NCBI GenBank assembly: GCA_030710605.1
Contig: CP092864.1
Span: 139,017,160-139,081,159, forward strand
DNA from: Cordylochernes scorpioides
Lineage: Eukaryota > Arthropoda > Arachnida > Pseudoscorpiones > Chernetidae
Length of the DNA: 64,000 bases
Reading direction: 5' to 3'
Shown here: piece by piece, positions 28,637 to 63,189 of the stretch
How positions within the stretch are numbered: the stretch's first letter is position 1
Layout of the letters: each line of letters starts with the position of its first letter
Program-made: the position numbers and the translations under genes
Notes under the pieces: model-generated
Told to the model about the DNA's origin: nothing
The model's database searches: none
The model's input: the letters and a program-made list of their open reading frames with translations, nothing else

Positions 28637-29981
28637 TATATCTGTTAGTCTAACATTACCAAGATTCACTGTATCGTAATAGAAGATGGTCTAGAGATGG
28701 CTCTATGATGCATGTATCAGCAGTATCATCCCATCATTCAATCCTTAACAAAAAACCTTTAATAATGCCACTCGTTCCATACAGGAGATTAGCAGATTAC
28801 TGCTATGTTTACTTCTGTTTATCCATCTGGGAGAATCCTGTATGGGACGATTGTCCTTAATAAAATACCTTTGTTGTTGATTAAGTATTGGAAGATAACT
28901 GCTATGTTTACTTCTGTTTATCCATCTGGGAGAATCCTGTATGGGACGATTGTCAATAATAAAATACCTTTGTTGTTGATTAAGGATTGGAAGATAGCTG
29001 CTATGTTTACTTCTGTTTATCCATCTGGAAGAATTCTGTATGGGACGAGTGTCCATAATAAAATACTTTTGTTGTTGATTAAGGATTGGAAGATCACTGC
29101 TATGTTTACTTCTGTTTATCCATCTGGAAGAATCCTGTATGGGACGATTGTCCATAATAAAATACTTTTGTTGTTGATTAAGGATTGGAAGAACACTGCT
29201 ATGTTTACTTCTGTTTATCCATCTGGAAGAATCCTGTATGGGACGAGTGTCCATAATAAAAGACTTTTGTTGTTGATTAAGGATTGGAAGATCACTGCCA
29301 TGTTTACTTCTGTTCATCCATCTGGGAGAATCCTGTATGGGACGATTGTCCATAATAAAATACTTTTGTTGTTGATTAAGTATTGGAAGATAACTGCCAT
29401 GTTTACTTCTGTTTATCCATCTGGGAGAATCCTGTATGGGACGATTGTCCTTAATAAAACACTTTTGTTGTTGATTAAGTATTGGAAGACCACTGCTATG
29501 TTTACTTCTGTTTATCCATCTGGGAGAATCCTGTATGGGACGAGTGTCCATAATAAAAGACTTTTGTTGTTGATTAAGTATTGGAAGATAACTGCCATGT
29601 TTACTTCTGTTTATCCATCTGGGAGAATCCTGTATGGGACGAGTGTCCATAATAAAAGACTTTTGTTGTTGATTAAGTATTGGAAGATAACTGCCATGTT
29701 TACTTCTGTTTATCCATCTGGGAGAATCCTGTATGGGACGATTGTCCATAATAAAATACTTTTGTTGTTGATTAAGTATTGGAAGACCACTGCTATGTTT
29801 ACTTCTGTTTATCCATCTGGGAGAATCCTGTATGGGACGATTGTCCTTAATAAAACACTTTTGTTGTTGATTAAGGATTGAATGATGGTATTGTACTGTT
29901 GATACATGCATTATAGAGTCCTCTCTAGACCATCTTTTATTACAATACGGAGAATCTTGGCAATGGTAGAGTAACAGATAT
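28637..29981. repeat. Inverted-repeat element enclosing an 11-copy 99-bp tandem array
   Basis: Arms of about 105-110 bp (28637-28746 and 29876-29981) are inverted copies of each other. Between them the 99-bp unit repeats about 11 times. Its parts are GCTATGTTTACTTCTGTTTA, GAATCCTGTATGGGACGA, GTCC-TAATAAAATAC and TTGTTGTTGATTAAG. Because 99 is divisible by three, long repeated open frames arise on both strands (about 358 and 464 codons). I treat them as artefacts: no domain, and both strands are equally open. The unit resembles the LINE 3' tail seen at 20610-20665. Confidence 0.9.
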
Positions 29982-30230
29982 ATACTAGACCAGCCATCCT
30001 GTAGAAGATTGTGTAGTGATAAATGGTTAAGATAGTTTAAAATCGTTTGAGAGAATAATTTCATCCAGGGAAACGTGTCTTGCAAAACAGGATTTAATAA
30101 ACTCAAGCTTTTGGGTCTTTTGATCACTTCGCGAATCACACAAGCACGCTATCTACATTTTCTTCCTAGATGTCGAAATGTGTGGTGTCGCTGGAGACCC
30201 GCTGGCGACCTTACACCAAACTCTGCAGCT

Positions 30231-37755: not shown

Positions 37756-38095
37756 AAGAAAAAGGCATCTCCTTATCGTGCAACTGAAAGTTGCTTGATG
37801 GCTGGCGCCATCTATCGGAATAAATATAAACTATTCTCGTTGATTTTTAATTATTCCAGAATTGGCCAAATACCCATTCTTGATTAATCAAGAAAAGCTA
37901 ACCACGGACGCGTTTCGGGCTGTTGGCCCTCATCAGCGTGGTGCAAGCTGTACCTCAATGACCTAAAAAATTGGTCATTAAGGCATCCTGAAAAATCATG
38001 AAACGGGTAGTTAAGGCCAGAATTGCGTGAGGACGCTACACAATGTGAAAAAATAGTACAAATGTAACATTGTACTGGGATAAGGTGCGTAAATT
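37756..38095 (-). repeat. Hammerhead repeat A, unit 1 of cluster
   Basis: This 340-bp unit is in minus orientation. The ribozyme segment (37902-37941) has all core bases: CTGATGA, GAAA and GTC, with stem I CCACG/CGTGG and stem II GGGC/GCCC. It is joined head-to-tail with the next unit. Confidence 0.88.
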
Positions 38096-38452
38096 AAGAA
38101 AAAGGCATCTCCTTATCGTGCAACTGAAAGTTGCTGATGGCTGGCGCCATCTATCGGAATAAATATCAACTATTCTCGTTGATTTTTAATTATTCCAGAA
38201 TTGGCCAAATACCCATTCTTGATTAATCAAGAAAAGCTAACCACGGACGCGTTTCGGGCTGTTGGCCCTCATCAGCGTGGTGCAAGCTGTACCTCAATGA
38301 CCTAAAAAATTGGTCATTAAGGCATCCTGAAAAATCATGAAACGGGTAGTTAAGGCCAGAATTGCGTGAGGACGCTACACAATGTGAAAAAATAGTACAA
38401 ATGTAACATTGTACTGGGATAAGGTGCGTAAATTAAGAAAAAGGCATCTCCC
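38096..38452 (-). repeat. Hammerhead repeat A, unit 2 of cluster
   Basis: Nearly identical to unit 1, with the ribozyme at 38241-38280. It runs about 20 bp into a third unit before the orientation flips, which is expected of a concatemer or circle-derived copy. Confidence 0.88.
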
Positions 38453-38453
38453 T

Positions 38454-38826
38454 ATCCAGTACAATGTTACATTTGTACTATTTTTTCACATTGTGTAGCG
38501 TCCTCACGCAATTCTGGCCTTAACTACCCGTTTCATGATTTTTCAGGATGCCTTAATGACCAATTTTTTAGGTCATTGAGGTACAGCTTGCACCACGCTG
38601 ATGAGGGCCAACAGCCCGAAACGCGTCCGTGGTTAGCTTTTCTTGATTAATCAAGAATGGGTATTTGGCCAATTCTGGAATAATTAAAAATCAACGAGAA
38701 TAGTTGATATTTATTCCGATAGATGGCGCCAGCCATCAGCAACTTTCAGTTGCACGATAAGGAGATGCCTTTTTCTTAATTTACGCACCTTATCCCAGTA
38801 CAATGTTACATTTGTACTATTTTTTC
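38454..38826 (+). repeat. Hammerhead repeat A, inverted unit 3
   Basis: Inverted relative to units 1 and 2, so that 38096-38452 and 38454-38826 form a hairpin with arms of more than 300 bp. Its ribozyme is at 38593-38632. TA-repeat sequence flanks the cluster on both sides (37739-37753 and 38827-38842). Confidence 0.88.
38593..38632 (+). ncRNA. Minimal type I hammerhead ribozyme
   Basis: Stem I is 38593-38597 (CCACG) with 38628-38632 (CGTGG). The catalytic segment CTGATGA is 38598-38604. Stem II is GGGC/GCCC (38605-38608 and 38614-38617) with loop CAACA. GAAA is 38618-38621. A minimal stem III (CGCG region) leads to the U16.1-C17 cleavage site before 38628. All invariant bases are present. 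Hammerheads with very short stem III are known from Penelope-like elements, retrozymes and schistosome and newt satellites, and often act as dimers. Minus-strand twins lie at 37902-37941 and 38241-38280. A variant (CTGACGA, GUA site) is at 44644-44683. Confidence 0.85.
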
Positions 38827-39209: not shown

Positions 39210-40080
39210 AAGTATTGCGTTTGAAATTATTTATAATTTTCAGCTGAAAATGGCTCATATTGATAATGATATTTAAAATAGTAGGGTCACAATGTTATTT
39301 TGACAATTAACATACTTTTATTGACATCTTGTCAACATAAGGTTTAAGTTGCATTCTGCACTAATCAGTGAATGATGAAAAATTTTCAATGATGAAATGA
39401 TGATGACATTGACGAAACACTTAAATTCAACCTATAAGTATGGTATTTTCTGTAATTAATAAACACGTAATACCTAAAGTATTCCGATAGTCAAATACCT
39501 CAAGAAGACAAGTCTGATGAACTTGGCGGCCATTTTAATAGGAATTTTTCCCATATGGAATTCCTTTTTATTTTCGTCCAAATTTTTTAACTCACAAATC
39601 ATGGTAATTTTAGAGAATTTCTGACGAAAATGGGGGCAACAGATGATCTTAGCGGCTTGTGTGGAAAATAAAACCAAGACTCAATACATTCAATAATATA
39701 ATGTCCATTCTCTAACAGCTACAGAAGTAATCACTTTTATCCCATTGAAGAAATATGAGAATTTGCGTATAACAAAGACACCTATGTAAAATTCAATACA
39801 TTTTGTAAATTTATTTTAAATTTTCTTTTCTGTTTGAGGAAAATCAACCTTTCAGTTTTAATTTTGTTTTTAGTCGTGTTTATTGAATTGTGTATCAAAT
39901 GAATTGTATATAAGCTGCTAAAATGTATTTAGGCGCAAGTATCCCAAGCTGGGAGAAATCGCGTCCGATATGTCAAATAAAATAAAATATTTTAATAAAA
40001 AATAACGACTCATCACACGATTTTCACCAAAAGAATTATTCAATAGTTGTTTGAAATGAAAGGAATTTTATGGAGATTAT
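39210..40080. other. Unassigned AT-rich stretch
   Basis: No element or gene recognised; a 67-codon minus frame at 39474-39677 shows no motif. Confidence 0.45.
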
Positions 40081-40099
40081 CTATCATATATTATATGTA

Positions 40100-40375
40100 T
40101 TTCTACTGTCCTTATGTCCATATTTCATTTAAAATACCATTTCCAAGAGGTCAGTTCCAGTATCGGTATAAAAGTAATAACCGAAAATGCAATATAACAG
40201 CGGTATGGTAGATTAAACTGGCGCTGGGAGAGTTCAACACTGATGATCCAGGCCCTCCCATTAATTTTTCATTGCAGTAAGGGCAATATATAATTGTTTA
40301 ATTTTTAAAATAATCATACGCGTCTATAATAGTTCTGAATTCTAATAACAGATGGCGCGCTAATGTATCATACTC
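40100..40375 (+). repeat. Permuted-hammerhead element, deleted copy
   Basis: The motif segment at 40199-40259 has the AGCGGTATGGT start and CTGATGATCCAGG but lacks the GAAACCG piece. Flanks carry the inverted CTACTGTCCTTA / CAGTAAGGGCA segments and the ACGCGTCTATAATAG terminus. Confidence 0.7.
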
Positions 40376-40409
40376 AATCTTATAGAAGAAGTAACACAAG
40401 TCGGGGAGA

Positions 40410-40545
40410 AGAGCTTCTTTTATAAGAGGATGACCGTACAAGCTTTCAGACAAGACGTTCTTCTACGGGTACCAGTAGAAAGACATCTAACCCGAAAGCT
40501 TTTACGATCATCCTCTTATAAAAAAGAAGCTTTTCTCCCCGACTA
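40410..40545. mobile_element. Hairpin MITE (TTCTTTTATAAGAGGATGA type)
   Basis: Inverted arms GGGGAGAAGAGCTTCTTTTA / TAAAAAAGAAGCTTTTCTCC enclose GACGTTCTTCTACGGGTACC and an AACCCGAAAGCTTT segment. Confidence 0.8.
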
Positions 40546-40604
40546 TGCAAATAGGGAGACTATCATTGTCTAAATACTTCATCTTGCATATCAAATGTAT
40601 TAAA

Positions 40605-40668
40605 TGTGTACAAATAAAAACACCAAAACGCGAAAGAAACATTCGCGTTTTGGTGTTTTTATTTGTAT
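40605..40668. repeat. Perfect hairpin of the AGAAACATTCGCG tail
   Basis: CACCAAAACGCGAA and TTCGCGTTTTGGTG pair across an AGAAACA loop, continuing into AATAAAAA/TTTTTATT. The same tail phrase ends several repeats in the window. Confidence 0.85.
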
Positions 40669-40672
40669 TATA

Positions 40673-40936
40673 CTAGCCGAATGACCCGTGCAACGCCCGG
40701 GGTTTACCCGATTAAATGCTTTTATTCAAATAATATTCGTTACAATTTAAAATTGGCGCCGTGGATGTCATTCTTGTATAATATATAAATGAGTTTTAAA
40801 AATTGTAAAAAAAAAAAATGCATCGGCCGGGAATCGAACCCGGGCCGCCCGCGTGGCAAGCGAGCATTCTACCACTTAACCACCGATGGTTATAAGAAAT
40901 AGCCATATTTGGGTATTTATTCCATTCACAAAAGCT
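40673..40936 (-). mobile_element. Helitron with tRNA-Gly, 5'-truncated
   Basis: The 3' end on the minus strand is a CGGGCGTTGCACGGG-type hairpin then TCATTCGGCTAG. It contains the tRNA-Gly copy at 40819-40889 followed by a T run. The 5' terminus is lost after GCTTTTGTGAATGG. Confidence 0.8.
40819..40889 (-). tRNA. tRNA-Gly(GCC)-like gene inside a Helitron
   Basis: 71 nt; A box GGTTAAGTGGTAG, anticodon GCC between CTTGCCACGC, and a perfect B box GGTTCGATTCC. The acceptor starts C rather than G, which breaks the first acceptor pair, and D-loop and anticodon-stem changes exist, so it is probably a pseudogene. A poly-T terminator follows directly. Confidence 0.7.
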
Positions 40937-41044
40937 GTGATTGAGCCGAATTTCTATTCTGTAATTATACTGTAGGGGACGCAAGGGCATTGCTGCCTAT
41001 ATCGTCCCTGGCTAGGTGAGCCGAATTTTTCTTCTGTAATTATA

Positions 41045-41605
41045 CTGTCTTAAAAGCTTATGCTCATAGTTTGCTTAAATACCATTTCTAAGATTCCACC
41101 CTTCAGTGTAGCATATAAAAGCAGAATGATCCAATACAGTATATAAAAGCCAGACCTTTGATCTCTGGGTCTTGATCTCCTGATCTTGATCTCTGAAATG
41201 ATCCCTTAACTATTTTTGAAGCCTGCGGCGCTTTAGTTGTGCTTGGTGCTGCCTTGGTTCCCTCAAAATCGGCGCGCACTCGCCCTCCTCTCCCCCGGGG
41301 TGCCCACGGCTCTGCCGGCGCCTCTCCAGCCCTCTCCTTGGCCCTCCAGTGCGGCGGGCGCTTGGAGACTCACAAAGATGTTGCGTCTTAAAATGCTTAC
41401 CAGAATAGCATGTAGAAGACGGATTAATAGATATATGATCCAATACAGTATTAGAGCTCTAAAGAAGCAGTCTGGTAGATTAAATTGGCGATACCGCTGG
41501 GAGGGTTAACCACTGATGAGCCAAGCCCACCCTAATATTTATTCATCGCAGTAAGGAAAGTAGAAGTTTGATTTATTTGTGAAAAGAAACATTCGCGTTT
41601 TGGTG
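41045..41605 (+). repeat. Permuted-hammerhead element with GC-rich insertion
   Basis: The flanks match 62280-62440 (AGCTTATG, CATAGTTT, AAATACCATTTCTAAGATTC, AATACAGTATTAGA). A 293-bp GC-rich insert (41143-41435) splits it, with 16-bp direct repeats TGATCCAATACAGTAT on both sides. The motif segment (41466-41530) shows AGCAGT, TGGT, TTGGC, CTGATGAG and CCAA; GAAA reads GATA. The tail ends in AAACATTCGCGTTTTGGTG. Confidence 0.75.
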
Positions 41606-41657
41606 TTTCCATTCATTATATGTATATAGATGACACGTTATTGCTATGTATTAAATG

Positions 41658-41970
41658 TATCAAACCCATTTGATCTAATTTCAACAAAAGACAAATATAT
41701 AAAATCAACTCTTTTTGTAGATTTATTTTTAATTGTATAAAAATAAACTACTAAATTCCTTTCGAAAGCTTTTATTTAGAAATTAATTCTGTTTAGCATA
41801 GTTTTAATTGTGAATAATTCTCTAATATCTTGCATATTTTCATTCTAAAATATTCCTTAAAACTTTCTTCAATCTGTAAATTGTTTTCCTCGAATACACA
41901 CAATACTTTACAATTGATTTCATTTAACTATATTTGAATACCAACCCTTTGTACATATTTGAATTGTGAA
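41658..41970. repeat. Dispersed AT-rich repeat, copy 2
   Basis: Homologous to 1738-2050. It is interrupted on the right by the 297-bp inverted-repeat element, with homology resuming at about 42300. Confidence 0.75.
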
Positions 41971-41977
41971 AATTCGT

Positions 41978-42274
41978 AACTATTATAGACGCGTATGATT
42001 CTTTTTAAAAATTAAACAATTTCTACTGCCCTTACTGTAATGGAAAAATTAATGGTTTCATCTGAAATACCCATTCCATGAGTCTAACATCAGTATCACT
42101 ATAAAAGGAAGTTCCAAAAATTCAATAATAACAGCGGTATGGAAGATTAAACTGGCGAAACCGCTGGGAGGGTTCACCACTGATGAGCCAGGCCCTCCCA
42201 TTAATTTTTCCATTGCAGTAAGGGTAGTAGAAATTGTTTAATTTCAAAAAGAATCTTACGCGTCTAAAATAGTT
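41978..42274 (+). mobile_element. Permuted-hammerhead element with about 78-bp inverted ends
   Basis: Terminal inverted repeats (41978-42055 and 42198-42274) match almost throughout: AACTATTATAGACGCGTA outside, CCATTAATTTTTCC inside. The centre has the motif at 42133-42199. Stem III is AGCGGT/ACCGCT, the central segment CTGGCGAAACC, and CTGATGAG-CCAG follows after ACCA. Absence from the homologous 2.05-kb locus shows it is an insertion. Confidence 0.8.
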
Positions 42275-42655
42275 TCTAATTTTACTTTCTATGATTAATT
42301 TACCTTTAAAGTGAAAGTGTCCCTAGGGGGACATAGCGCTCTAAGTCAAAATATAATAAAAATATAAAATATATTTTACCATAAAATGGTTGTCTCTTCT
42401 ATATAGTAATTCAATGATCCCATTTCTCGGAAGTTTGATATAACATTTAACCGTTACAGAAACAGTTCCAATAGTTGCGATTAAGAAAATTCTTCAAAGA
42501 AATTCCATCCAATAATAAGACTTTAGGTTGACGAAGTGGCATTTATATTAAAACTTTGAAGATTTCTGTTGCCTAAATGAGGCTGTTATGGATGTTAAGT
42601 GTGTTTATAGACAATATTTTGGCAATTTAATAACTCTCAATGTGTAAAATCCATA

Positions 42656-43081
42656 TTCTATATACAGTTACGAGCGTCATTCCTCATCTCCTAATCAACA
42701 ATCAGTCATCAGTTTTCATCTCTGTCACCGTTTGCTTTTTTTTTCTGGAATGGCGCCCTCCTATTGGTTGGCTACGGTCACGCCACCTTTGCTCCCCCCC
42801 ACTCGCTATTTCGTCTTTGTAACTATTGTGTTGGAGCGGGTCGCTCCCTAAATAAATGCATATATTAGATAATAATTGAATGGAATCCTCTCTTTCTTTT
42901 TCCCAGTAAGAGACGCCTACGGAAGCCAACAGTACATAGACAGATAAAGCACATAGGCGCTATAGTTATTAACTAACATATGCAATTATTTAAGGCGCCA
43001 ATTTATAATTGTAACAAATAGTATTTGAATCAAAACATTCAATCGGGTAAAACACGGGCGTTGCCCGGGTCATTCGGCTAG
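42656..43081 (+). mobile_element. Non-autonomous Helitron without tRNA cargo
   Basis: A then TTCTATATACAG at the 5' end; hairpin CGGGCGTTGCCCG, then TCATTCGGCTAG followed by T at the 3' end. The interior has a GC-rich CTCCTATTGGTTGGCTACGG part, a CACTCGC segment after a C run, and CTAAATAAATGCATATATTAG inverted later. Confidence 0.85.
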
Positions 43082-43184
43082 TTATATAATAACTAAGGCT
43101 TATATTCTCTGTGTGTATATCTTTCAAAATTATTTCCTAAAAAAATCCAATATTTCGATGGGATTTTATTCTGGGATTCAAGTG

Positions 43185-43295
43185 CAAAGGTCTAACTGCT
43201 TTCCATATATGTAAACTGTGGTATACTTACAGCAAAAGCAGTCGCTAACTACCCACCATGATTATCATGGTCTGTACCACGTGTACTAGGGATAA
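43185..43295 (+). repeat. SINE-1 tail fragment
   Basis: Tail with CCATGATTATCATGG and GTACCACGTGTACTAGGG. Confidence 0.65.
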
Positions 43296-43389
43296 TAAAA
43301 AAGTATATTTATGCTCTTAGATGAATGAAAAATGATTGATAAAACCTATTAAAAAATAAAATAAAACGTAGAAAACAAATAAGTATATA

Positions 43390-43820
43390 AAACACTTAAA
43401 GTTGCACCGCATAAGTTTCTTTTCTGTGAAAAATAAATATTGATTTTTCACAGAAAAGAAACTTATGCGGTGCAACTTTAAGTGTTTTATAATCATACGC
43501 CGCAGTCCTTTATAATGTATTATAAGTTACTTTAAGTATTATTTACGAACGGAAAAATACGTCCAGGGTAGCCTAGTGGACATGGCATCTGCCCGGTAAG
43601 CGGAAGGTTGTGGGTTCGATTCCCGCCCCTGGACACTTTTATTTTTCCGTTCGCCATTACTCTTCATATTTTAACCCTTTCATACTTCATCCAAAAAAGT
43701 TAGAAATAGTAAATATTTCTCTTTGAAATAAATATCGATTTTTCACAGAAAAGAAACTTATGCGGTGCAACTCTAAGTGTTTTATAATCATACGCCGCAG
43801 TCCTTTATAATGTAAATAAG
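43390..43820 (+). repeat. SINE-2: tRNA-headed repeat with inverted tail copy
   Basis: The head at 43562-43634 folds as a tRNA: acceptor TCCAGGG/CCCTGGA, A box TAGCCTAGTGG, five-pair anticodon stem TCTGC/GCGGA, T arm GTGGG/CCCGC and B box GGTTCGATTCC. The anticodon by position is GGT (Thr), but base 33 is C instead of U, so it is a SINE head or pseudogene. The tail runs to about 43815 (GAAAAGAAACTTATGCGG, ATCATACGCCGCAG). Upstream at 43390-43485 two tail ends form a hairpin. Confidence 0.75.
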
Positions 43821-44490
43821 TATATGTTTGGATATATAGTTTATCCTGTAGCATGACTGTAGTGATGTAGTGTAGTGTGGCATGTTGGTTGCAGTCGTGG
43901 TGGCCACAATGATCAGAGAGATTACAGACGTGAATGGGATTACACAAAAGGACAAGGCATGCTGGATATCACCACAGAGATGGCGAGAGAGTGAAGCCGA
44001 CGCCGGTCAAGGCAGGTCTGTCGAGGGAGGTCTGATCTATTCTAGTGTCCGAGATGAACTGGTCTATTTATGAACAAGCAGAGGGCACATCTAGGCATCT
44101 GACTGTTTTTCGGACCTTTCTCCTGTCTGGGCGCCGGCTGTCACTTAATTTAATATTATTATGTCGTTTTGGTATTACATGATGGCCGAACTGGCGAGTT
44201 GAATTGTATGTACAGTTTTGGTTTGTTACACTATATTACATATGGGGATATAAGTATATATTGAAATATATTACAAATATTATACCAAAAGAGGTACTTT
44301 TTCCATATAAAAATGTATTAAAACAATCCATTTGGGTTAAAACCCTCCGATACTGGATGTCAAGCTGGTGAAGAATGAGAAAAAAACACCAGTTATAAAT
44401 CGGACCATTATAAGTTTATTAATTTATAAGTTCACAGATATAAGAAATTTACGATTTACTTTTATAAAAAATATTCGAAAAACCTTACGC
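43821..44490. other. Unassigned stretch
   Basis: 43840-44150 is somewhat GC-richer and unique within the window. No recognised domain or terminal repeat. Confidence 0.4.
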
Positions 44491-44499
44491 AATATTATG

Positions 44500-44760
44500 A
44501 AAAAGGGCATCTCCTTATCGTGCAACTGAAAGTTGCTGATGGCTTGCGCTTATCTATCGGAATAAATATCAATTATTGTCGTTGATTTTTAAGTATTCCA
44601 GAATTGTCCAAATACCAATTCTTGATCAATCAATAAAATCTAACCACGTACGCGTTTCGGGCTGTTGGCCCTCGTCAGCGTGGTGCAAGCTGTACCTCAA
44701 CGACCAAAAAACTGGTCATTCAGGCATCCTGAAAAATCATGAAATGGGTAGTTAAGGCCT
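44500..44760 (-). repeat. Hammerhead repeat A with variant intact core
   Basis: The ribozyme at 44644-44683 reads CCACG, CTGACGA, GGGC-CAACA-GCCC, GAAA, CGCG, TA then CGTGG. Position 7 is variable in the family, and U-A is an accepted cleavage-site doublet, so activity is plausible. A TTGAAGAGCGAGAGCTCGAAAG motif (minus strand, 44795-44822) lies next to it. Confidence 0.82.
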
Positions 44761-44929
44761 TACGGAATATGTTTCTTTATTTGAAAAACACCACGAACTT
44801 TCGAGCTCTCGCTCTTCAACAGGTAATATTATAATTTAAGATTGGGAAAGGGGAGGCGAGATGGCTATTTATACTGAGAATGAGCATGTGAGACGAGTCG
44901 ATTTATAGGTTTGTTTATAGAAAAGATTT

Positions 44930-45345
44930 AATCTACCATACCGCTTCTTCGTCTATTTGTCCAATACAGTATTAGAGCTCTAAGAAGCGGTCTGGTAAAT
45001 AACACTGACGAAACCGCTGGGAGGATTCACTATTGATGAGCCAAGCACTCAAAATATACTTTTCATCGCAGTGAAAACACACAGTAGCAATTTTTTTATA
45101 TTTAAAAGAAACATTCGTGTCTTAGTGTTTCAATTTCTTAATGATAAAAGTGGTATAGAATATTAGAACTCACAAAGAAGCGGTTTGGTAAATAATACTG
45201 GCGAAACCGCTGGAAGGGTTCACTACTGATGAGCCAAGCCCTCCAAATATATTTTTCGTCGCAGTAAGGATTGTAAAAAAATGTTTTATGCATAAAAAAG
45301 CATTTGTACTTTAACGTTTTCATTTATTATTGATAAAAATGGCAA
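44930..45345 (+). repeat. Two adjacent permuted-hammerhead elements
   Basis: Copy d (44986-45046) has the AGCGGTC-TGGT start, CGAAACCGCT and TTGATGAG (C3 lost). Copy e (45179-45244) has AGCGGTT-TGGT, CTGGCGAAACCGCT, CTGATGAG and CCAA. An inverted fragment of the left segment (CTACCATACCGCTTCTTCG) precedes copy d. Tails end AAAGAAACATTCG or similar. Confidence 0.75.
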
Positions 45346-45404
45346 TAGGATATAGAAAGGATTTTGGTAACTTTATGCAAATAATTCAAGAAAAATAAAA
45401 AATT

Positions 45405-45520
45405 TCAAGAAAAAAGGCATCTCCTGATCGTGCAATTAAAAGTTGCTGATAGCTTGTGCCATCTATCGGACTAATCAACTTTTATTTGCACGATCAAGAG
45501 ATACGCTTTTTTTTTTTCTT
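45405..45520. repeat. Repeat A fragments in palindrome
   Basis: AAAAGGCATCTCCTGATCGTG and its inverted counterpart enclose GTTGCTGATAGC and CCATCTATCGG. Confidence 0.6.
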
Positions 45521-45759
45521 TATTTATCCACCTGATCCAAGTACAAATTCATTTTTTTTTTTTGCTATTTTTCAAACTAATGCAAATAAGTTTTTAATAA
45601 TGTTTTGCACTTTTGTTTTTAATTGAGGTAAGTAACAATGCGTCAATATTTTTTAGACAATTTTTTGATGGTATTGATTTTATAGCTAAGAGGATATGAC
45701 AGTATGAAGAATATTTTATGCAATTTGTAATGAAGGATAAACAATGGCATTCAAAGCTA

Positions 45760-46222
45760 TTCTATATACAGTTACGAGCGTCATGCGTTCTTCATCTCTG
45801 TCACCGTTTGCTTTTTTTTTTTTTTTGGAATGGCGCTCTCCTATTGGTTCGCTACGATGGCGCCGCCACTGCGCGAGACACTTTGTTTTTACTTTGCCCC
45901 CCCCCACTCGCTTTTTGGTTTTTGTAACTATTGTGTTGGAGCGGGTCGCTCCTTAAATAAATGCATATATTAGTTAATAACCAAATGGAATCCTCTCTTT
46001 CTTTTTCCCAGTAAGAGACGCCTACGGAAGCCAACAGTACATAGACAGATAAAGTACATAGGCTATAGGCTAATATATGCATTTATTTAAGGCGCCAATT
46101 TATAATTGTAACAAATAGTATTTGAATAAAAACATTCAATCGGGTGAAACACGGGCGTTAATGATCCAACAGGTCCACGTGTCTAAATTAAAACACGGGC
46201 GTTGCCCGGGTCATTCGGCTAG
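45760..46222 (+). mobile_element. Non-autonomous Helitron without tRNA cargo
   Basis: It has the same ends as 42656-43081. Near the 3' end the AAACACGGGCGTT segment is duplicated around an inserted AATGATCCAACAGGTCCACG, leaving one complete terminal hairpin and CTAG followed by T. Confidence 0.85.
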
Positions 46223-48646
46223 TGTATAATAATTCTCAAATTTAGGTAATATGATAAGAAACCCATTGTTATGTACTCTTCTACCTAAGTGTAGTTTTTC
46301 ATTGAAAGAGATTGTATGCTAATGATTTATATATTTGCATAATATTTTATTATTACATAATTATCATAAGAACTAAAAACAAGAATATATCACGCTATAT
46401 ATTGATTACATCACACAACAACAACCAAGTCCTTGGTCAAAACCATATATACATAAAATTATTACACCCATTAACAAAGAATCAATCCAATATTCCATTC
46501 AATAGAAAAGAAGCCATATACTCCATATCATGTAATAACCGTAGTTATAAATATGTAGGGGGTATTAATTCATAATAGAATAGTTGAACATAATAGAAAT
46601 ATTACCAATAGCGGCCCAAACGATCTTTAATAGTTCAACACAAAGGAAAAATAGGCCATACTTTTAATTTATCTCAACTCATAATGTATTATGGCAATAT
46701 CCATAGTATACAAATACTAAGATGTAATGGTAAATTTATACATTTAATTTCCATCTATCGCTAAAATATTTTGTACAAATAAATTTTCTGGCAAAAATAA
46801 TATTTGATGATATTTAAAAGAAACCCATTGCCTGAAAAAATTTATCTGTACAAAATATTTTAGTAATGATAAATACTAAAACAATAAATATTATCTCTAA
46901 GTATTGCAGACGAAATTATAGGTGGACTACAATTGAGCTACAGTCACGCCATCTCGATTTGACATTTGTAACTATTTTAATCAATTTTATATTACTTTTT
47001 AAATATATATAATAGAGGTATAAATATTGTGTTAGGGTTTTTATTTATAATATATATACCAGCCCCTTATAGTATTTTCTCATTTTAGTAAAAACTGTAA
47101 TAAATTGTTATATTTTAGAAAGAAATAATCATGTTAAATATTTTATATTTCGAAATAAATACTTGTTTTTGCCATTTTAGATTTTTAAAAGAATAACATA
47201 TTTATATTTAAAGAATTTGAAATTAATAAGTGGATATTTTGAAATTAGAAATTTATTTTTAGTAATAATACTAAAAAGAAAATTTAATATTACATAGTGT
47301 GGTGGGAACAATGTAATAATATTCTAGGATTTCAATAGACAAATGCATTTCCATTTTATTTATATATTTCAAAAGAACTCCCCATTTTAAAGATTTATTG
47401 AAATTCTCTTGAATCAACAATATTTTCCATTCCATTTGTCGTCTGGCATTTTCTTTTTTTCAACAAAACCTCCCTTGTTTCATTTCCGAAATAATACACA
47501 CACAAAAATGACATAAGAATTATATATAAAAGATAGAAGAAATGGATCTAGTTTTGCAAAACTATATAATATTTTTTTATTTTTTAAAAAACATTTCTAA
47601 TAAAATTATTTTTAATTTTCAAAAGAAAGTTTCAAATTGTGTATATATAAATGTGTTTATATCTTTAACATATGATATCAAAAGTTAATTTGATTGCACG
47701 CATTTTTTCCATTGCAGTAATAGACGCGTATGATTCTTTTAAAAATTTGAAAATTGATAATAAGATTGTTTGAAATACCATCTACAAAATTATATTAAAT
47801 GCAATCATTTATATTTCAGATATATATTTTATTTATTTCATCTATGAATACGCCCCAAGAGCGCCTCTGGGTTACCTACCTATATGTTACTTATTTAATT
47901 CTCCATTTTTAGGTTTTGTATATTCCAATTTAAAAAATAAATCTTTAATCATATAATATTCTTTTGGTATGCACTCATGTTTTAAAAAAATACAACACCA
48001 TAAACACCGTCACAGGCATAAACTAAATCTTTAGCCGTAATTTTTAAAAGAATCATACGCGTCTATAATAGTTTCGAATTTTCATAACAGATGGGACGCT
48101 AATGCATCATAACATATTTTGTAGTATATTATAACATTTAACTATATGGCTATATCAACTCATTTTTTATTATTTAGTTACCGCCATTTTTGTGAATCGC
48201 TCTCACTCTTTTCTGAGGAATGATTGGTTGGGAAATAAATATTAAAAAGATTGGTTGATCTATCCATATATTTTTCCAAAGAAACTTTCAACCAACAAAT
48301 GATGAGGGGTATTTAGGGAACCTATCAAAATAAGCTTATAAGTCTGTAGAGAGAGAGAAATACCCTCTATAACCTCTACAGACCTATAAGCTTATGTTTC
48401 TTCATGTCAATATTTTAAAAAAATACACTTTGATAACAGAATTTTTAATCGATATTTTCGATTTTATTTTATATTTTAACAACTATATTATGTTAGGTAG
48501 AATAGGAATTATTTTATTTTATTCGAAATTGGTCTATTTAGATATTTTATATCCTATAAGGTAATAATTCGTGTTTAATGTAAATTTAAAAATAAAAACA
48601 GGAAGATTTTTCAATCTAAATGTGTAAAAATAAATCGAAAATAATA
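46223..48646. other. AT-rich intergenic stretch
   Basis: No gene. 47746-48038 is a near copy of 51868-52508. 47700-47745 and 48035-48115 carry ACGCGTATGATTC-type termini of the permuted-hammerhead family. A short hairpin (CTGTAGAG/CTCTACAG) is at 48330-48395. Confidence 0.6.
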
Positions 48647-53127: not shown

Positions 53128-56100
53128 TTAGCTTGTCTCAGCCCTTGTTCTGGAAGGAAATCTATCACGGCTGGTGTTCCCTAGCAGAATAGAATGTTGT
53201 TCTTCAGGGTCCAGGTAGGGCTTCATCCGAATAACATGGACGATATCCTTGGCTTTCCGTGATCGGGGAGAGGGGTCCACGGGCTCTACTTCATACGTAA
53301 CTTCTGAAAGCTTCTTGGTCACCTTATAGGGACCGAAGTATCTCTTCAGTAGCTTTTCTGATAGTCCTACTTTTCGGATGGGAGTAAAAACCCACACAAG
53401 ATCATCCTTCTGGTAATAGACTGGAGTATGTTTCTGGTCGTATAGTCTACGGTCTTTCGCCTGTGATTGTAGAAGGCGTGATCGGGAGAGTTGACGCGCT
53501 TCCTCAGCTCTGGTCACAAGTTCTCCAACGTAGTCGTTAGAGATCTCATCTGGTAGGTAGGGTAGTAAGGCATCGGTGTAGGTCTCGGCCTCGCGGGCGT
53601 GGACAAGAAAGAACGGGGTGTAGCCGGTCGCCTCCTGTTTAGCAGTGTTGTAAGCAAAAGTTACATAGGGCAAAACTTGATCCCAGTCCTTCTGCTCAAC
53701 ACCTGTGTACATGGATAACATGTCTCCCAGAGTTTTGTTGAACCTTTCAGTCAGGCCGTTGGTCTGGGGATGGTATGCCGTTGTAAATCTGTGCACAATT
53801 CCGCACAGAGCATTGATCTCTTTTATTACTTGAGAAATGAAATTTCTGCCGCGATCTGTTATCATTTCTCTAGGAGCTCCATGCTTCAAGATGACGTCTT
53901 CAACCAGGAACTTAGCTGTTTCGATTGCTCCTCCGTCTGGGATCGCTTTCGTTATGGCATACCTTGTCATATAATCGGTGCACACAATGATCCAACGGTT
54001 TCCATCTTTAGAAACTGGAAATCTTCCAAGGAGATCAACCCCGACTTTATAGAATGGCTTTTCTACGGGCGGTATGGATACAAGTTGTCCAGCCGGACGT
54101 CGAGGTAATTTCTTCCTTCGTTGACACTCCCGACAATGGCTTACATATTGGCGAACAGTTCTATAAAGGCCAGGCCAATAGAATCGTTTTTTGACATTGT
54201 CATACGTCCGGGCGAAACCCAAATGCCCAGCTGTAGGAGCATCATGTAAATCTGCCATAACTTCCGATCTTAAGTGCTTAGGGATCATCATAAGCCAGGG
54301 TTTTCCAGTTGTGCTATAGTTTTTCTTGTATAAGATGCCGTCGATAATGCTGAATTCCTTTCTGGTGTAGCCCGAGTTTAAATTATCGATTATTTTAGCC
54401 AAATCCGGGTCTTTAGTCTGCTCTATATCGACGTTGGTTAGTAACATCACAGCACTTGGTTGATCGTTCTCAAGCGGGCTCCTTGACAGACAATCGGCAT
54501 CCTTATGTTTGCGTCCGCTCTTGTAGATAACGGTCACGTCAAATTCTTGCAACTTCAGCGCCCATCTTGCCAAACGGCCAGAAGGATCTTTCTGCCCTAC
54601 CAACCAACATAGAGAATGATGGTCAGTGACAACCGTGAATGGTCGACCAAACAAATATGGGCGGAATTTGCTAATAGACCAGACTACAGCAAGGCATTCT
54701 TTTTCCGTTGTAGAATAGTTATTTTCAGCCTTTGTCAAGCTTCTAGATGCATAAGCTATAGGCCGCTCCTTTCCACCTTGTATTTGTAGAAGAACAGCTC
54801 CAATACCATGTCCGCTTGCATCCGTGTGCAGATGGGTATCAGCGGATTCATCAAAGTGTCCTAAGACAGGCTCTGAAATTAGAGCTGTTTTAAGGACTTC
54901 AAACGCTTTCTCTTGAGCTGCATCCCAATAAAATTGTTTTTCAGTCTTCAGTAGGTCATGCAAAGATCTAGCTTTGTCGGCAAAGTTCTCAATAAATCTT
55001 CGGTAATAGGAACATAATCCAAGAAAGCTCTTCAGTTCAGAGATATTCCTTGGCCTCGGAAATTTAGAGACGGCTTCAACTTTATCTGGATCTGGATGAA
55101 TTCCATTGGCGTCAACAAGGTGTCCCAAAATCTTTATCCTCCTTGATCCAAAAAGACACTTTTTGTGGTTCAAGCTTAGTCCAGCTTTCTGGATGCAGCT
55201 TAATACAAGTTGTAGACGACGTAGATGTTCCTCAAAGGTAGGTGCGTAAACTACGATGTCGTCCAGGTAGCAAAGGCACATGTTCCATTTAAGACTGCCT
55301 AGAACACTATCTATCATCCTTTCAAACGTTGCTGGGGCGTTGCAAAGACCGGAAGGCATTACTTGGAATTCATACAGCCCATCTGGAGTGATGAAAGCAG
55401 TTTTCTCCCTGTCCTTTTCGTCCACTTCAATCTGCCAATACCTGGACCGAAGATCCATCGTGGAGAAGTAACTAGAGCCAGCTAAACTGTCCAAGGCATC
55501 GTCAATGCGTGGCAGCGGGTAAACATCTTTTTTGTTATCTTATTTAATCGACGGTAATCTACGCAGAATCTCCAGGTCCCGTCTTTCTTTCGAACTAGAA
55601 TAACTGGAGATGACCAAGGACTTTCAGAGGGCTTCACGATGTGATTTTCAATCGTCTTGTTCACTTCATCTTGAATTAGTCGTCGTTCACTTGGTGCTAC
55701 TCTATAGGGCCGCTGTTTGATAGGAGACTGGTCGCCTGTGTTTATCTTGTGCTTCACAGTACTGGTGGGCTTAATAGGAGTACTCCCAAAGTCAAATATG
55801 CCAATAAACTCGTCAAGGCATGAAACAAGCTGTAACCTTTGAATTTCAGATAGCCCTGGATCTAGAGTAAGGTTTATCTTCTGTGACCATTCACGTGACT
55901 TTAGCTGCGTTTCTTGTAACTTATCGCTGGATTCAATAAGACTGCAGATATTCCCATTATCATAACTTTCCATGGTGCACATATTCATTCCTGATGGAAT
56001 CAGTTGCGGCCAAGACGCTCCATTCGCCACCCAAATGCTACCTCGGCCGTGTCGAAATGTAACCAATGAGTTTGGTATAAGAACTTCCTTTCTTAATAAT

Positions 56101-56656
56101 AAGTCCTTAGAAGTTGAGACTAAAACATCTCTAACACCACATATTTCTTCGTTTAACACACTGATCTTCTTTATTGATTTAGGCGGGATGACAAAGTCGT
56201 CGGAAGCAAACAATCTCTGGTTTTCCTCCTCTCGAAATTCCAGGACGGAGGTTTCCCCGAGATGGAGTTCATTTCTGCCACAATCAATGACGGCCTCGGT
56301 GGCCTTGAAGAAGTCCCATCCAAATATGATGTCATGGCTGCATTCCACCATAACAACGAATTCAAATGAGATATTCAGACCATTAACTTCTATGTTCAGG
56401 ACACATTTTCCTAGGGTCTCTATTAAATTTTTGTTTGCGGCTTTAAGAATGGGACCTGGTTCTTTGAAGAGAGGTGTATTTAGTTCGCGTCGAAATTTGT
56501 CTGAAATAACAGAAAAGTCGGCTCCTGAATCCACCAATGCTTTAATTTTGCGTCCATTTATTTCGACCATAACAAAATTTTCTTTTAATTTAGCGGCGAT
56601 ATACCCTGGAGGATTTTCCTCAATGGCGACCTCACCCCCGTTAGAAGCCGCTCCAC
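53128..56656 (-). pseudogene. pol: gypsy Pol: protease, RT, RNase H, integrase (one frameshift)
   Basis: Pol makes the element's enzymes. The protease has [12 protein letters not shown] near the start of the 56570 frame. RT begins in that frame ([21 protein letters not shown]) and, after a one-base loss in an A run near 55530, continues from 55494: MDLRSRYWQIEV, MPSGLCNAPATF and the catalytic YLDD (residues 76-79). RNase H follows (HLHTDASGHG, VVTDHHSLCWL). Integrase has an HHCC zinc finger (HDAPTAGH...CRECQRR), then Asp in CTDYMTRY, Asp in TDRGRNF and Glu in TERFNKT. It lies downstream of gag in the -1 frame, entered at a candidate slippery site at 56660-56666. No envelope or chromodomain is seen. 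The homopolymer shift could be a sequencing error. Confidence 0.93.
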
Positions 56657-57933
56657 TTAGTTTTTCACATTCTGAGGCATGGGAGAACGGCTGAAACGAC
56701 GGGCTGGCGACTGGGATTGTCTTCGGGCTGGCGACCTTGCGCGGCTTGGATGTGGGGAAGAGCTCCGGTAGAAGTACGTCGAGGTTTGGGGCGTTACATA
56801 GTCGTCGTCGGCGTCATATCTCGGGGGTCGACTCGAAAATCCAACATTTCTTCCTTCTCCGCCATTCCTTAACTTGGCTTCAGCGAAGACCTGTCGTCGT
56901 TCCCTACAATAACGGACGACATGTCCGGGTCGTCCGCAGTGGAAGCAGATAGGTTTGTCGTCGTAGGTTCTCCAATGTTCCGTTTTACTGGGTTGGGTTG
57001 GTCGGTCGATATTATAATAGGGCGTTCGTGGTTGTTGTTGTACCACGTTGTCTTGTGGTCTGGTAGGTTGTAGAGCACGGCTGACCTCTTCCCTCACAGT
57101 CTGTTCCAGGGCGTTCACCTCTCGGAGAGGATTGATCACTTCAGGTGCTGAGAAAACCTTTTGTATCTCTTCTCCAACGATGCGGCGAATTAACGCGGCC
57201 AAGTCGTCTGAGTCGTCAACACACGCAATGGGCATACGTTTGACAACCTGGCGAATTTCGTACGGCCGATCCTGCGCTGCTTGACGGTTGTCAGATGACG
57301 GCAAAACTTCAGGATCTCATCTACTGTCTGTATGTCTTTCGCCACCAATACCTGGTATGTGTCCTCCGAAATTCCCTTTATAATGTGAGCAACTATCTCA
57401 CCTTCTTCCATGCGAGGGTTCACCTGGTGGCAGAGACTAAGAATCTCCTGGATGTATGACTCGCTGGATTCCTCGGCCTTCTGTGCTCTTGACTTCAGAA
57501 CTTCCTCGGCGCGTCGAGCAGAATCCTCTTGCAGTCCGAACACACCGCGGAATGCGTCTTCAAAGCTTCTCCACGAGTTGAGTGATTCTTCGTTATTATC
57601 AAACCACCTTCCAGCAGTTCCGTTCAAGTAAAATACGACGTTGGCAAGCTTCATGGTCTCGTCCCATCTGTTGTACTTCGACACTCTCTCGTACTCTTTC
57701 AACCACTGTCCAGGGTTTATATTTCCATCTCCAGAAAAGGTAGAAGGATCTCGTTGGCGCTGACAAGGGAAGTAGGATCCTCTAACAGTAGGTCTGTGGT
57801 CGTCTTCCATTTCTATTCGTTGTGGCAAAGGTTGAAGAATTGGTTCACGTCCCTGTAGACGTCGACTTCTTCGAAGTTCCGTCACGCTACCCAGCGTCTC
57901 CGCCAAAATATGTCGCGGAGATAAATAAATCAA
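56657..57933 (-). pseudogene. gag: gypsy Gag with CCHC knuckle (one frameshift)
   Basis: The capsid-like part contains DPSTFSGDGNINPGQWL and FYLNGTAGRWFDN, typical of Ty3/gypsy Gag. Near 57290-57305 the frame changes, and the second frame supplies the rest, including CFHCGRPGHVVRYC (CCHC nucleocapsid knuckle) and a Ser/Arg/Pro-rich tail. The frame is open back into the LTR; an ATG at 57810 and one at 57933 are both possible starts. Arg-rich LRRSRRLQG upstream of the 57810 ATG looks conserved in style, so the earlier start may be real. The stop is directly preceded by AAA AAC. Confidence 0.88.
56660..56666 (-). promoter_or_regulatory. Candidate -1 frameshift site between gag and pol
   Basis: The element strand reads G AAA AAC immediately before the gag stop TAA, with pol open in the -1 frame from there. 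It resembles retroviral X-XXY-YYZ slippery heptamers but with G in the first place. Confidence 0.55.
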
Positions 57934-58189
57934 GGGCAGGTTTGGGGATAATTAATTTATTATAAGCGATATTTATAGGGAGATGGATAAAGTACAACTT
58001 ACCCAAGTTAAAGTTAATCCTAATGAGGGACGTCAGCTCCCCCCGCCGGCCAGATTCCCCAGAACCCCTCACACCCGGTGTCCAGCGATGATTGACAGAC
58101 GTCCCATGGGGCCTCTTGTGATTGGAGCCGCTGAGCTTCTTGACAATATCTTTCCAGATGACTTCAAATTAGTAGTTTTTAAATTAAAG

Positions 58190-59089: not shown

Positions 59090-59389
59090 AATCGTGAGTT
59101 TTTATTTATCTCCCTTTTATTGTTGTTATACTCTTGAGTGTACGCTTTTCTCTGTGTTAAGTTACTATTACTTTAGACCCTAGTAAATTGCTAGTAAATC
59201 CAGATCGGATATAGCGTGTTTTATTTGAAATTGGTAATAAATAAAAAATAAATAGTAAATTGCACCTTGTGCGTTATCCCGTAAAAGTTAACTTTTCTCA
59301 TCTGTCTTGCTGAGAAGTCTTAAACCTTCCCTGCAACATAGGCACAAGCAATAACGCGCCATCTATACATATAAAATGAAAGGATTTAA

Positions 59390-59530
59390 AGCGCGAATGT
59401 TTCTTTTATACATAATACGAACTTCTACTGTCCTTACTGCTCTCCCAATATATTTTTTCATCGCAGTAAGGACAGTAGAAGTTCGTATTATGTATAAAAG
59501 AAACATTCGCGCTTTAAATCCTTTTATTTT
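59390..59530. repeat. Near-perfect 65-bp-arm hairpin
   Basis: AAAGCGCGAATGTTTC outside and ACTGTCCTTACTGC inside, inverted around TTTTTTCATC. These are the terminal parts of the permuted-hammerhead family without the centre. Confidence 0.8.
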
Positions 59531-59534
59531 ATAG

Positions 59535-59995
59535 GCACAAGCGTTTGCCTGTTGAAATATAGATTTAGGAATACGATGAAGGAAGAGTTTGGCTTCGTGT
59601 TCCATTAATTCCCTGATATAGACGTCTCTATGAAAAGATAAAATCTAACTGCGAAGAATTTCTTTATTAAAAAGATATATTCTTGGCGAACCTTCGTACA
59701 ATAATGTCCTTCAATAAGCTGTAATACGAATACAAGGCTCGTATTACAGCCTGTTAAAGAAGTTATTGCTCGAAATCTCACCAAGATTATATCTTTTTAA
59801 CAAAGAAACTTGTCACCGTTAGCTTTAACCTCTTCATAGAGATGTCAATATCAAGAAGGTTTTGGAATCCAAAGTCAAACCCTTCCTTCATCGTATTACT
59901 AAATCCATATTTCAACAGGTCAATGCTTATCCACATATTGTATGGAATATTAAAGATTTATTCTCAGCAAAACAGATACTATTTCTTCCATGGCT
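59535..59995. repeat. Nested palindrome with short coding-like segment
   Basis: The centre GCTGTAATACGA / TCGTATTACAGC (59716-59752) is surrounded by inverted arms. The right arm is open for about 55 codons (KPFLHRITKSIFQQVNAY) and the left arm encodes a related peptide on the minus strand. Origin unknown. Confidence 0.55.
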
Positions 59996-61219: not shown

Positions 61220-61980
61220 AGAAAGAGAAAATATAAAGAAATGCATTTGGTGTATGTAAATATATAACATATTTTATAAACATTCTCCCCCAAATACAGT
61301 AAAATGATTTACTTAGATGCTGAAACTTGTTCAGATTTTGTTTAGTCAATTTCAATACTAGCACAATTTTATTGTATAATATATTCATATTGTTGTTGTT
61401 TCTTATCCCCTTGTGCAAATATTACACGAATTCCATGAGTTCATGCTCCTCGAGCTTCTCATGGAAGACGCAGCTCCTCCATATCCCTGGAGTGGGACCC
61501 TTGCTGAGGGTCAGTTGAAGTCAGGATTTTTAAAGAGGTCTACTCCTCTTCTAACAATATTGTATAATATATTCATATTAAATGTATAGAATTAGATCGC
61601 GGCGCGACAGGGAGAAGTTTTAGAACTGATTCAACAGAAATGAATATATTTTATGCAATTTTACCCTCCAAGTTACGTCTACAATATGACTAATATGGAA
61701 ACGGCATCCGGCATTGCCAATGTTGAACACGAAAACAACCACACTTCAAAATGTGTCAATACACTTTACAATATTATTATTACACTTTGAAATGTTATTA
61801 CAATTTAAAATGTTGTTATTACATTTTTAAAAGATGTCATTCCCCTTAAAAGGCTGTTATTATACTTCTCTTTCTCTCAAAAGGCATTCATTATTCTTCA
61901 AAAGTTGTTATCACACACTTTGAAATGTTTTTATCACATTTTAAAATGTGTCAAGACACAAAGACATTAAAGATATTATT
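61220..61980. other. Unassigned stretch
   Basis: It includes a GC-richer 61430-61530 segment without a recognised product and AT-rich ACTTTGAAATGTT-like phrases at 61770-61950. Confidence 0.4.
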
Positions 61981-61989
61981 GGAAAATTT

Positions 61990-62265
61990 AAATTTTTCCA
62001 ATAAAATATTAACAAGAAATGGGAAAGCCAAGTGGTATATAAAAGGAAGTTCCAAAAATGCAATATTACAGCGGTATGGTAGATTAAACTGGCGAAACCG
62101 CTGAGAGGGTTCACCACTGATGAGCCAGGCCCTCTCATTAATTTTTCCATTGCAGTAAGGACAGTAGAAATTGTTTAATATAAAAAAGAATCTTACGCCT
62201 TTAAAATAGTTTTGAATTTTGATAACAGATGGCGCGCTAGTGCATCAAAGATATTATTATTACAA
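61990..62265 (+). repeat. Permuted-hammerhead element, best copy
   Basis: Motif at 62070-62136. AGCGGT, A, TGGT (62070-62080); CTGGC-GAAA-CCGCT (62089-62102); GAGAGGG (62103-62109); ACCA-CTGATGA-GCCAG (62113-62128); CCCTCTC (62130-62136). All three hammerhead stems and the invariant core bases are present, plus a 7-bp extra helix. The tail follows (ATTTTTCCATTGCAGTAAGG), then TTACGCCTTTAAAATAG. Confidence 0.8.
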
Positions 62266-62279
62266 TTTACAATGATATT

Positions 62280-62445
62280 ACACTTCGAGAGCTTATGTCC
62301 ATAGTTTTCTTAAATACCATTTCTAAGATTCCAAACTTCAGTGCAGCATATATAAGAAGAATGATACAATACAGTATTAGAACTCTAAAGTAGCAGTCTG
62401 ATAGATAAAATTGGTGAAACCGCTGGGAAGGTTTACTACTGTTTA
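62280..62445 (+). repeat. Permuted-hammerhead element, truncated
   Basis: Matches 41045-41140 on the left; the motif (62393-62440) stops at TACTACTG, before the CTGATGAG is complete. Confidence 0.7.
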
Positions 62446-62757
62446 AACTTGTGTGTGTAAAAACATTTGTCCTGTGTTCTCTATAAATAAGGTAAAAAAA
62501 CATACTTAAACTCTAAGATCATAATAACTACTCCGAACAATTCAAGGATGTAATACATTTTAAAAAGGTGTTCCGGCAAACTGAGACAAGACAGCAAGTC
62601 CTATGGGAAAACTGCTGAGTTTTTACCAACACACCTAATTAGTTTAGTTAATTTGATGTAAAATGATGAAGTGAACCCTTCCTTAACTCCATGTTTATTT
62701 TTAATTACACAATCCTTAATAAAACAATCTTCCAAGTATTTGTTTTTATAATATATG

Positions 62758-63189
62758 CTAGCCGAATGACCCGGGCAACGCCCGGGTTTTACCCGATTAA
62801 ATGCTTTTATTCAAATACTATTCGTTACAATTATAAATTGGCGCCGTGGATGTCATTCTTGTATAATATATAAATGACAAAAGAATTGCTATAAATTATT
62901 AAATAAAAACAAACGATAGCAATGCGTCTCTTTATACATAAGTTTTTATTATTATTATATATATACATTGTTTTTATTTAATATATAAATGAGTTTTAAA
63001 TATTGTAAAAAAAGAAAATGCATCGGCCGGGAATCGAACCCGGGCCGCCCGCGTGGCAGGCGAGCATTTTACCACTGAACCATCGATGCTTATGAGAAAT
63101 GGCCATATTTGGGTATTTATTCCATTCACAAAAGCAAACGGTGACAGAATTAAGAATTGATTGATGACTCTGATACTTGTATATTTTAA
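62758..63189 (-). mobile_element. Helitron with tRNA-Gly, near full length
   Basis: The 3' end is CCCGGGCGTTGCCCGGG, TCATTCGGCTAG; the 5' end is A then TTAAAATATACAAG with ATCAGAGTCATC. The cargo is the tRNA-Gly gene at 63019-63089 with a pol III T-run terminator. An inserted AT segment (62880-62990) duplicates the ATATATAAATGA phrase. Confidence 0.85.
63019..63089 (-). tRNA. tRNA-Gly(GCC), near-canonical, inside a Helitron
   Basis: 71 nt, GCATCGA start and CGATGCA end, A box TGGTTCAGTGG, anticodon loop TGCCACG with GCC, B box GGTTCGATTCC, followed by TTTTC and TTTTTTT. Two changes from the usual animal sequence (acceptor position 7 G to A, and an A in the D arm) leave the cloverleaf essentially intact. 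It could be expressed; it could equally be inert. Confidence 0.82.

Follow-up and report, generated by a model that had tools for sequence, protein, structure and literature searches.

The window analysed here, a stretch of DNA of 64,000 nucleotides, contains on its + strand a 67-nucleotide sequence (62070-62136) that carries all parts of a hammerhead ribozyme in the order cleavage-site strand (block S), GAAA strand (block G) and CTGATGA strand (block C). This order, which is not a circular permutation of types I, II or III, is that of the type-SGC, non-circularly permuted hammerheads described by Eckert, Friedrich, Weinberg and Weinberg (Eckert et al., NAR 2023, PMC10085705), and by analogy with them we regard the sequence as a real and probably active type-SGC hammerhead. 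It is likely that this hammerhead belongs to a short non-autonomous mobile repeat of an arachnid genome, that it cleaves and that the repeat spreads via RNA. An initial annotation of the DNA knew of no described hammerhead with such a topology, a statement overtaken by the 2023 publication: the topology is already known, and what appears to be new is its occurrence in an arachnid genome, within a putatively mobile repeat.

Sequence and predicted fold of the intact copy

The intact copy reads AGCGGT A TGGT AGATTAAA CTGGC GAA ACCGCT GAGAGGG TTC ACCA CTGATGA GCCAG G CCCTCTC, and a descriptor together with a pairing check placed blocks S, G and C in that order on one strand and within a short span (Table 1). 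Standard pairs were found at 22 of 22 positions over the four helices, 15 of 15 in stems I-III and 7 of 7 in the fourth helix. All core positions tested were those of a hammerhead, namely CUGAUGA, GAA, an A15.1-U16.1 pair and A at H17, with position numbers (U16.1, H17, G12, A15.1) that we take to follow the hammerhead convention. The strand order, the stems, the pseudoknotted arrangement with its extra helix GAGAGGG/CCCTCTC and the positions of H17 and of cleavage had been put forward in the initial annotation; the sequence agrees with the first three, and the last two follow from the layout.

Once the + strand is transcribed, two adjacent hairpins would form, one from stem III and one from the fourth helix; pairing between their loops could then provide stems I and II and complete an ordinary hammerhead core. 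The 2'-OH of A62076 would then attack the phosphate to U62077, and the RNA would be cut. Hammerhead cleavage leaves a 2',3'-cyclic phosphate and a 5'-OH. In the MFE fold of the 67-mer, stem III and the fourth helix are present as two adjacent hairpins (z -2.7).

The fold and the predicted cleavage site between 62076 and 62077 are argued for by a strong analogy with the ribozymes of Eckert et al. (PMC10085705). In the parts of that article considered here, type SGC comprises 583 predicted sequences with significant covariation and a fourth stem that ties stems I and II; five candidates cleaved in vitro at the predicted site and a sixth, without the site, did not, and disruption and rescue by compensatory mutants is described for all four stems of one ribozyme. 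The Site-GAAA-CUGAnGA order, stems I-III and the fourth helix are shared with the copy at 62070, whereas stem I has 4 bp here and 5 bp in the HRIMA-1 group of that article, and the linker between stems I and II has 8 nt here as against typically 3 nt in that group.

At 62070 the fourth helix abuts stem III with a zero-length joint, and this direct joint is common to all copies in the window. In the same parts of PMC10085705, distal stem III and the fourth helix are directly joined in a few cases, which are described as hard to reconcile with the crystal structure, so that a rare and structurally puzzling feature there is the general one here. The initial annotation had looked to three-dimensional modelling of the linkers for a check. 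A crude A-form rigid-body model, with stem I omitted, closed the joint with a one-nucleotide linker (penalty 0.39) and failed to close it with a zero linker in that place (penalty 26.5); control lengths close too, which makes the model weak evidence. The zero-length joint is sterically tight, as likewise noted in PMC10085705.

Table 1 Features of the permuted hammerhead repeat and of related elements in the window
Feature	Position	Strand	Basis
Intact type-SGC hammerhead, 67 nt	62070-62136	+	sequence, pairing, fold
Stem III AGCGGT/ACCGCT	62070-62075 with 62097-62102	+	pairing
Stem I TGGT/ACCA	62077-62080 with 62113-62116	+	pairing
Stem II CTGGC/GCCAG	62089-62093 with 62124-62128	+	pairing
Fourth helix GAGAGGG/CCCTCTC	62103-62109 with 62130-62136	+	pairing
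Block S: stem III 3' strand, U16.1 (62075), H17 = A (62076), stem I 5' strand	62070-62080	+	
Block G: stem II 3' strand, G12 A13 A14 (62094-62096), A15.1 (62097), stem III 5' strand	62089-62102	+	
Block C: stem I 3' strand, CTGATGA (62117-62123), stem II 5' strand	62113-62128	+	
Putative inserted element carrying the intact ribozyme, 266 bp	61981-62246	+	
Left 12-bp direct repeat AAAGATATTATT, putative target-site duplication	61969-61980	+	
Right 12-bp direct repeat AAAGATATTATT	62247-62258	+	
Intact-core copy; stem I 3/4 pairs; fourth helix GGGAGGG/CCCTCCC	42133-42199	+	profile search, pairing
Intact-core copy; stem II 4/5 pairs, fourth helix 5/7 pairs	45179-45245	+	profile search, descriptor, pairing
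Decayed by a C3 to T change; same direction as 45179, from which it lies 193 bp upstream	44986-45052	+	
Decayed copy; GAAA core removed by 6-bp deletion	40199-40259	+	profile search, pairing
Decayed copy; GAAA replaced by GATA, stem III and fourth helix mismatched	41466-41532	+	
Truncated copy; blocks S and G present, homology stops inside block C	62392-62441	+	
Inverted copy of 3' flank (42198-42283), upstream of copy 42133	41969-42055	-	
Relative without ribozyme: two inverted 3' parts forming a palindrome	59350-59530	.	
Direct repeats ATAGGCACAAGC, 12 bp, around 59350-59530	59338-59349 and 59531-59542		
Minimal type I hammerheads	37903-37940, 38242-38279, 38594-38631, 44645-44682	-, -, +, -	descriptor

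Copies of the repeat in the window

The seven copies counted in the initial annotation were recovered by a nucleotide profile search of the window, all on the + strand, with profile spans of 40194-40311, 41461-41585, 42128-42251, 44981-45108, 45174-45298, 62065-62188 and, truncated, 62387-62469. The same search also returned partial matches to the 3' part at 59.4 kb and 42.0 kb, plus weaker ones. The core is complete in three of the seven copies (42133, 45179 and 62070), and all four helices are perfect in 62070 only; the four remaining cores are broken by deletion of the GAAA core, by GATA, by a C3 to T change and by loss of homology in block C. H17 is A in three copies, C in three and T in one, and G in none, which agrees with the earlier statement that it is A, C or T in different copies. 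The fourth helix has 7 of 7 pairs at 62070 and 42133 and fewer in the other five copies.

MFE folding covered four of the seven copies (62070, 42133, 45179 and 41466). Both hairpins were present in the fold of 42133 (z -1.9), and stem III was present at 45179, where the full fourth helix was absent (z -2.1). The fold of 41466 contained neither hairpin and, with a z of 0.78, was no better than its own shuffles. Copies 44986 and 45179 form a head-to-tail pair with an offset of 193 bp, and Tandem Repeats Finder reports nothing at 44900-45450. An unrelated insertion of ~290 bp, flanked by a 17-bp direct repeat, ATGATCCAATACAGTAT, at 41126 and 41435, interrupts the region upstream of 41466 (41126-41451).

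Conservation and covariation

When six copies were compared with one another, similarity over the 67-nt core (mean 0.85) exceeded that over 64-69 positions of the 3' flank (mean 0.72) for all 15 copy pairs, which are not independent. Identity between copies ranges from 75 to 96% in the core and from 63 to 91% in the flank.

The covariation alignment consisted of six copies; the 62392 row was left out because the extra two double changes that it brings fall past the end of homology. The six alignable copies hold two double changes, a number reached by 47 of 500 column shuffles, and one of the two lies in the fourth helix. With 62392 included there are four double changes, equalled by 12 of 500 shuffles, of which the extra two lie in the unalignable end. 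Both compensatory changes quoted in the initial annotation exist, but the core of one of the copies concerned, 41466, is broken (GATA for GAAA), and the covariation argument is weaker than it was made there, given the 47 shuffles that equal the two double changes. The conservation of core over flank is the better evidence of selection.

Alternative explanations

The four broken cores, and the divergence of the copies in both core and flank, are also what would be seen if the ribozyme had been functional in a source element and all copies here, 62070 included, were inactive remnants. We consider this unlikely, as 62070 is perfect in its core and in all helices, and the 12-bp direct repeats that flank it are identical.

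A different fold might arise in a read-through or tandem transcript, in which block S and the CTGATGA strand of one copy would combine with the GAAA strand of the next as a type-III (SCG) hammerhead, making the SGC order inside a single copy incidental. Neighbouring pairs exist at 44986/45179, 41466/42133 and 62070/62392. Combined with the GAAA strand of 62392, block S and the CTGATGA strand of 62070 form all 15 pairs of stems I-III (G-U included) around an intact core, and the 41466/42133 combination has an intact core with one mismatch each in stem III and stem II. However, the CTGATGA strand is broken in 44986/45179, the last of the three combinations examined, the two-copy fold spans ~355 nt as compared with 67 nt in cis, and the fourth helix has no role in it, yet 81% of the cells of this helix pair and one double change falls there. 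For these reasons we judge the two-copy fold quite improbable.

A type-SGC hammerhead formed within a single copy was further set against chance. The strict SGC descriptor, which required the core, at least 4 bp in each stem and at most one G-U, gave two matches over the 64 kb; both belong to this repeat, and there was none in any other block order. Strict SGC matches arose by chance once in 200 shuffles and four times in 1500 shuffles (both strands); summed over six orders and both strands there were 20 in 1500 shuffles, and 3-bp stems brought the chance number to 93 in 1500. If pairs are treated as independent, a window should hold ~3e-8 examples of the full motif together with an abutting fourth helix of 7 bp, and the SGC motif at 62070 is rare by chance. 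Although two of the four chance SGC matches in the 1500 shuffled windows had a fourth helix of at least 6 pairs under a loose rule, it is highly improbable that a structured repeat with two hairpins and complementary loops resembles a hammerhead by accident, in view of that expectation, the fit to a family defined beforehand (PMC10085705, in the parts considered) and the higher conservation of core than of flank.

A putative mobile element

The right end of the putative element around 62070 is the end of homology to the other copies, and its left end is set by the direct repeat only. Among the listed open frames of at least 120 aa, none overlaps 61981-62246. Each of the 12-mers AAAGATATTATT and ATAGGCACAAGC is present nowhere else in the window. 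A 12-bp direct repeat was found at two of eight loci examined, and the other six had none longer than 8 bp. For comparison, a 12-mer occurring exactly twice in the window was shared in this way at 131 of 20000 random places, and some 12-mer, with no uniqueness filter, at 386 of 2000, 482 of 4000 and 2144 of 20000, mostly in the repeat-rich stretches at 4-8 and 28-32 kb. Two 20-bp stretches ~270 bp apart shared one such 12-mer in 9 of 4000 cases. When 41652-42382 was compared with the related 1736-2228, ~95 bp around the insertion had no counterpart and no clean junction was seen.

The 12-bp direct repeats, the partial and inverted copies and the short length together suggest, more tentatively than the fold, that the repeat may have spread by reverse transcription, as in animal retrozymes. 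It would then spread through RNA, and cleavage might set the 5' end or the monomer length, much as in those elements; this role of cleavage in mobility is likewise put forward with more reserve. That the inverted repeats are those of a DNA transposon is less likely, as inverted arms occur in some copies only and the direct repeats measure 12 bp. Both subfamilies have a TATA-like box and ACAG(T) immediately before the ribozyme, which would put a transcript start near it; as a promoter they are only suggestive.

Animal non-LTR retrozymes, in the parts of their description considered here (PMC7229834), are likewise short, with a length of a few hundred bp, low in GC and devoid of LTRs, and they contain a hammerhead; their target-site duplications, when present, exceed 4 bp, compared with direct repeats of 12 bp here. 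Accumulation of circular RNA is a further mark of animal retrozymes. They differ in carrying type I hammerheads, whereas this repeat carries type SGC, and in forming clear tandem arrays, whereas one diverged head-to-tail pair is present in the window (PMC7229834).

The window also contains reverse-transcribing elements of its own. The open frame at 14976-18136 (-) encodes a non-LTR reverse transcriptase with a best match 96% identical over 92% of the query, and the 42 proteins at E 1e-250 or below all came from Cordylochernes scorpioides (8000 candidates scored). The Ty3-type pol frame at 53129-55539 (-) has its top match in Cordylochernes scorpioides (97% identical, covering 38% of the query); other matches from this species were 92-98% identical over 33-39% of the query, and those from other sources were at most 67% identical among the 120 matches listed. 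The element to which this frame belongs, a Ty3-type retrotransposon at 53128-57951 (-), has both pol and gag-like open frames. The matches of the two frames indicate animal DNA, probably that of Cordylochernes scorpioides, a pseudoscorpion, or of a close relative, since both frames are those of transposons.

Penelope-like elements are retroelements associated with minimal type I hammerheads and have partial and inverted copies. Their block order differs from that of this repeat, and no Penelope-type reverse transcriptase was seen among the four of 35 listed ORFs that were searched with Pfam.

Other repeats were noted in the window. tRNA-Gly(GCC)-like genes at 40819-40889 (-) and 63019-63089 (-), with a shorter relative at 14068-14127 (+), lie in repeats at ~40771-40935, 62971-63135 and 13962-14276 that are 84-93% alike, as would fit a repeat derived from a tRNA. 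At 28745-30148, a tandem repeat of ~100 bp gives rise to long open frames on both strands, as seen in the translations. Stretches at 43387-43490 and 38323-38549, with below-cut-off scores against several microRNA families, are probably inverted repeats.

Other hammerheads in the window and in viral contigs

When stem III was allowed 2 bp, the descriptor found four type I (CGS) hammerheads in the window, compared with 21 in 1500 shuffles (Table 1). Their architecture is that of a stem I, a 4-bp stem II and a stem III of 2-3 bp. The three of them that lie in the stretch covered by a lax Rfam search matched Hammerhead_HH9 (RF02275) at E 3.4e-4 and 26.5 bits, below its gathering score of 52. The four belong to another repeat, represented by 44501-44759 and its relatives, and they indicate that ordinary minimal hammerheads exist in this genome alongside the permuted ones. 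Pieces of the type-I-hammerhead repeat (44501-44759 and 45411-45483) flank the SGC pair 44986/45179 (44501-45483).

At gathering score, Rfam gave no hammerhead in the whole window, and with lax thresholds none at 62000-62200 or 39500-46500; the lax matches at 62000-62200, to the archaeal-type C/D box families sR42 and sR17 (E 4.2 and 9.1), were put down to chance.

Family-specific patterns had no match in viral_contigs or genome_contigs. A looser pattern matched at least 120 stretches of viral contigs, and in 1.07 Mb from these stretches the descriptor found 93 GSC (type II), 2 SCG, 2 SGC, 1 GCS and 1 CGS. The 93 GSC matches serve as a positive control, the contigs having been fetched by a GAAA...CTGATGA pattern, and many phage contigs hold several type-II hammerheads each. 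The two viral SGC matches (L014 and L057) were rejected, as they reuse the G and C strands of a type II with an upstream S strand by chance. With the S strand placed in front, the pattern selected 18 contigs, two of which passed as SGC at 3-bp stems; both were set aside because each overlaps a type II and the fourth helix has at most 4 pairs. No convincing further type SGC was obtained with these patterns, which many stems would escape.

Discussion

The 2023 study demonstrated a ribozyme with non-circularly permuted parts in sequences whose organisms of origin are unknown (PMC10085705). In the parts of that article considered here, almost all motifs were exclusive to metatranscriptomes, and the sole motif in the genome of a known organism was a type-GCS candidate in a bacterium, with no type SGC. 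The published type SGC, with cleavage demonstrated, comes almost entirely from metatranscriptomes, whereas here a repeat family in animal DNA is predicted from its sequence to cleave. In the open literature, outside most subscription papers and bioRxiv preprints, we found no other paper describing type SGC; two ARTEM papers with the type-SGC wording, in the portions considered, merely cite Eckert et al. The same literature yielded no publication on a hammerhead ribozyme together with a pseudoscorpion.

The chances seem to us evenly balanced that arachnid chromosomes hold a mobile family with a type-SGC hammerhead, which would be its first known chromosomal and animal home, beside type I hammerheads, and a possible source of some of the metatranscriptomic SGC RNAs. 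The copies in the window are good targets for structural work because their zero-length joint does not obviously fit the hammerhead crystal structure. With several genomic copies in a likely animal host, expression, cleavage in vivo, the formation of circular RNA and the origin of the permuted order beside canonical type I hammerheads would become testable.
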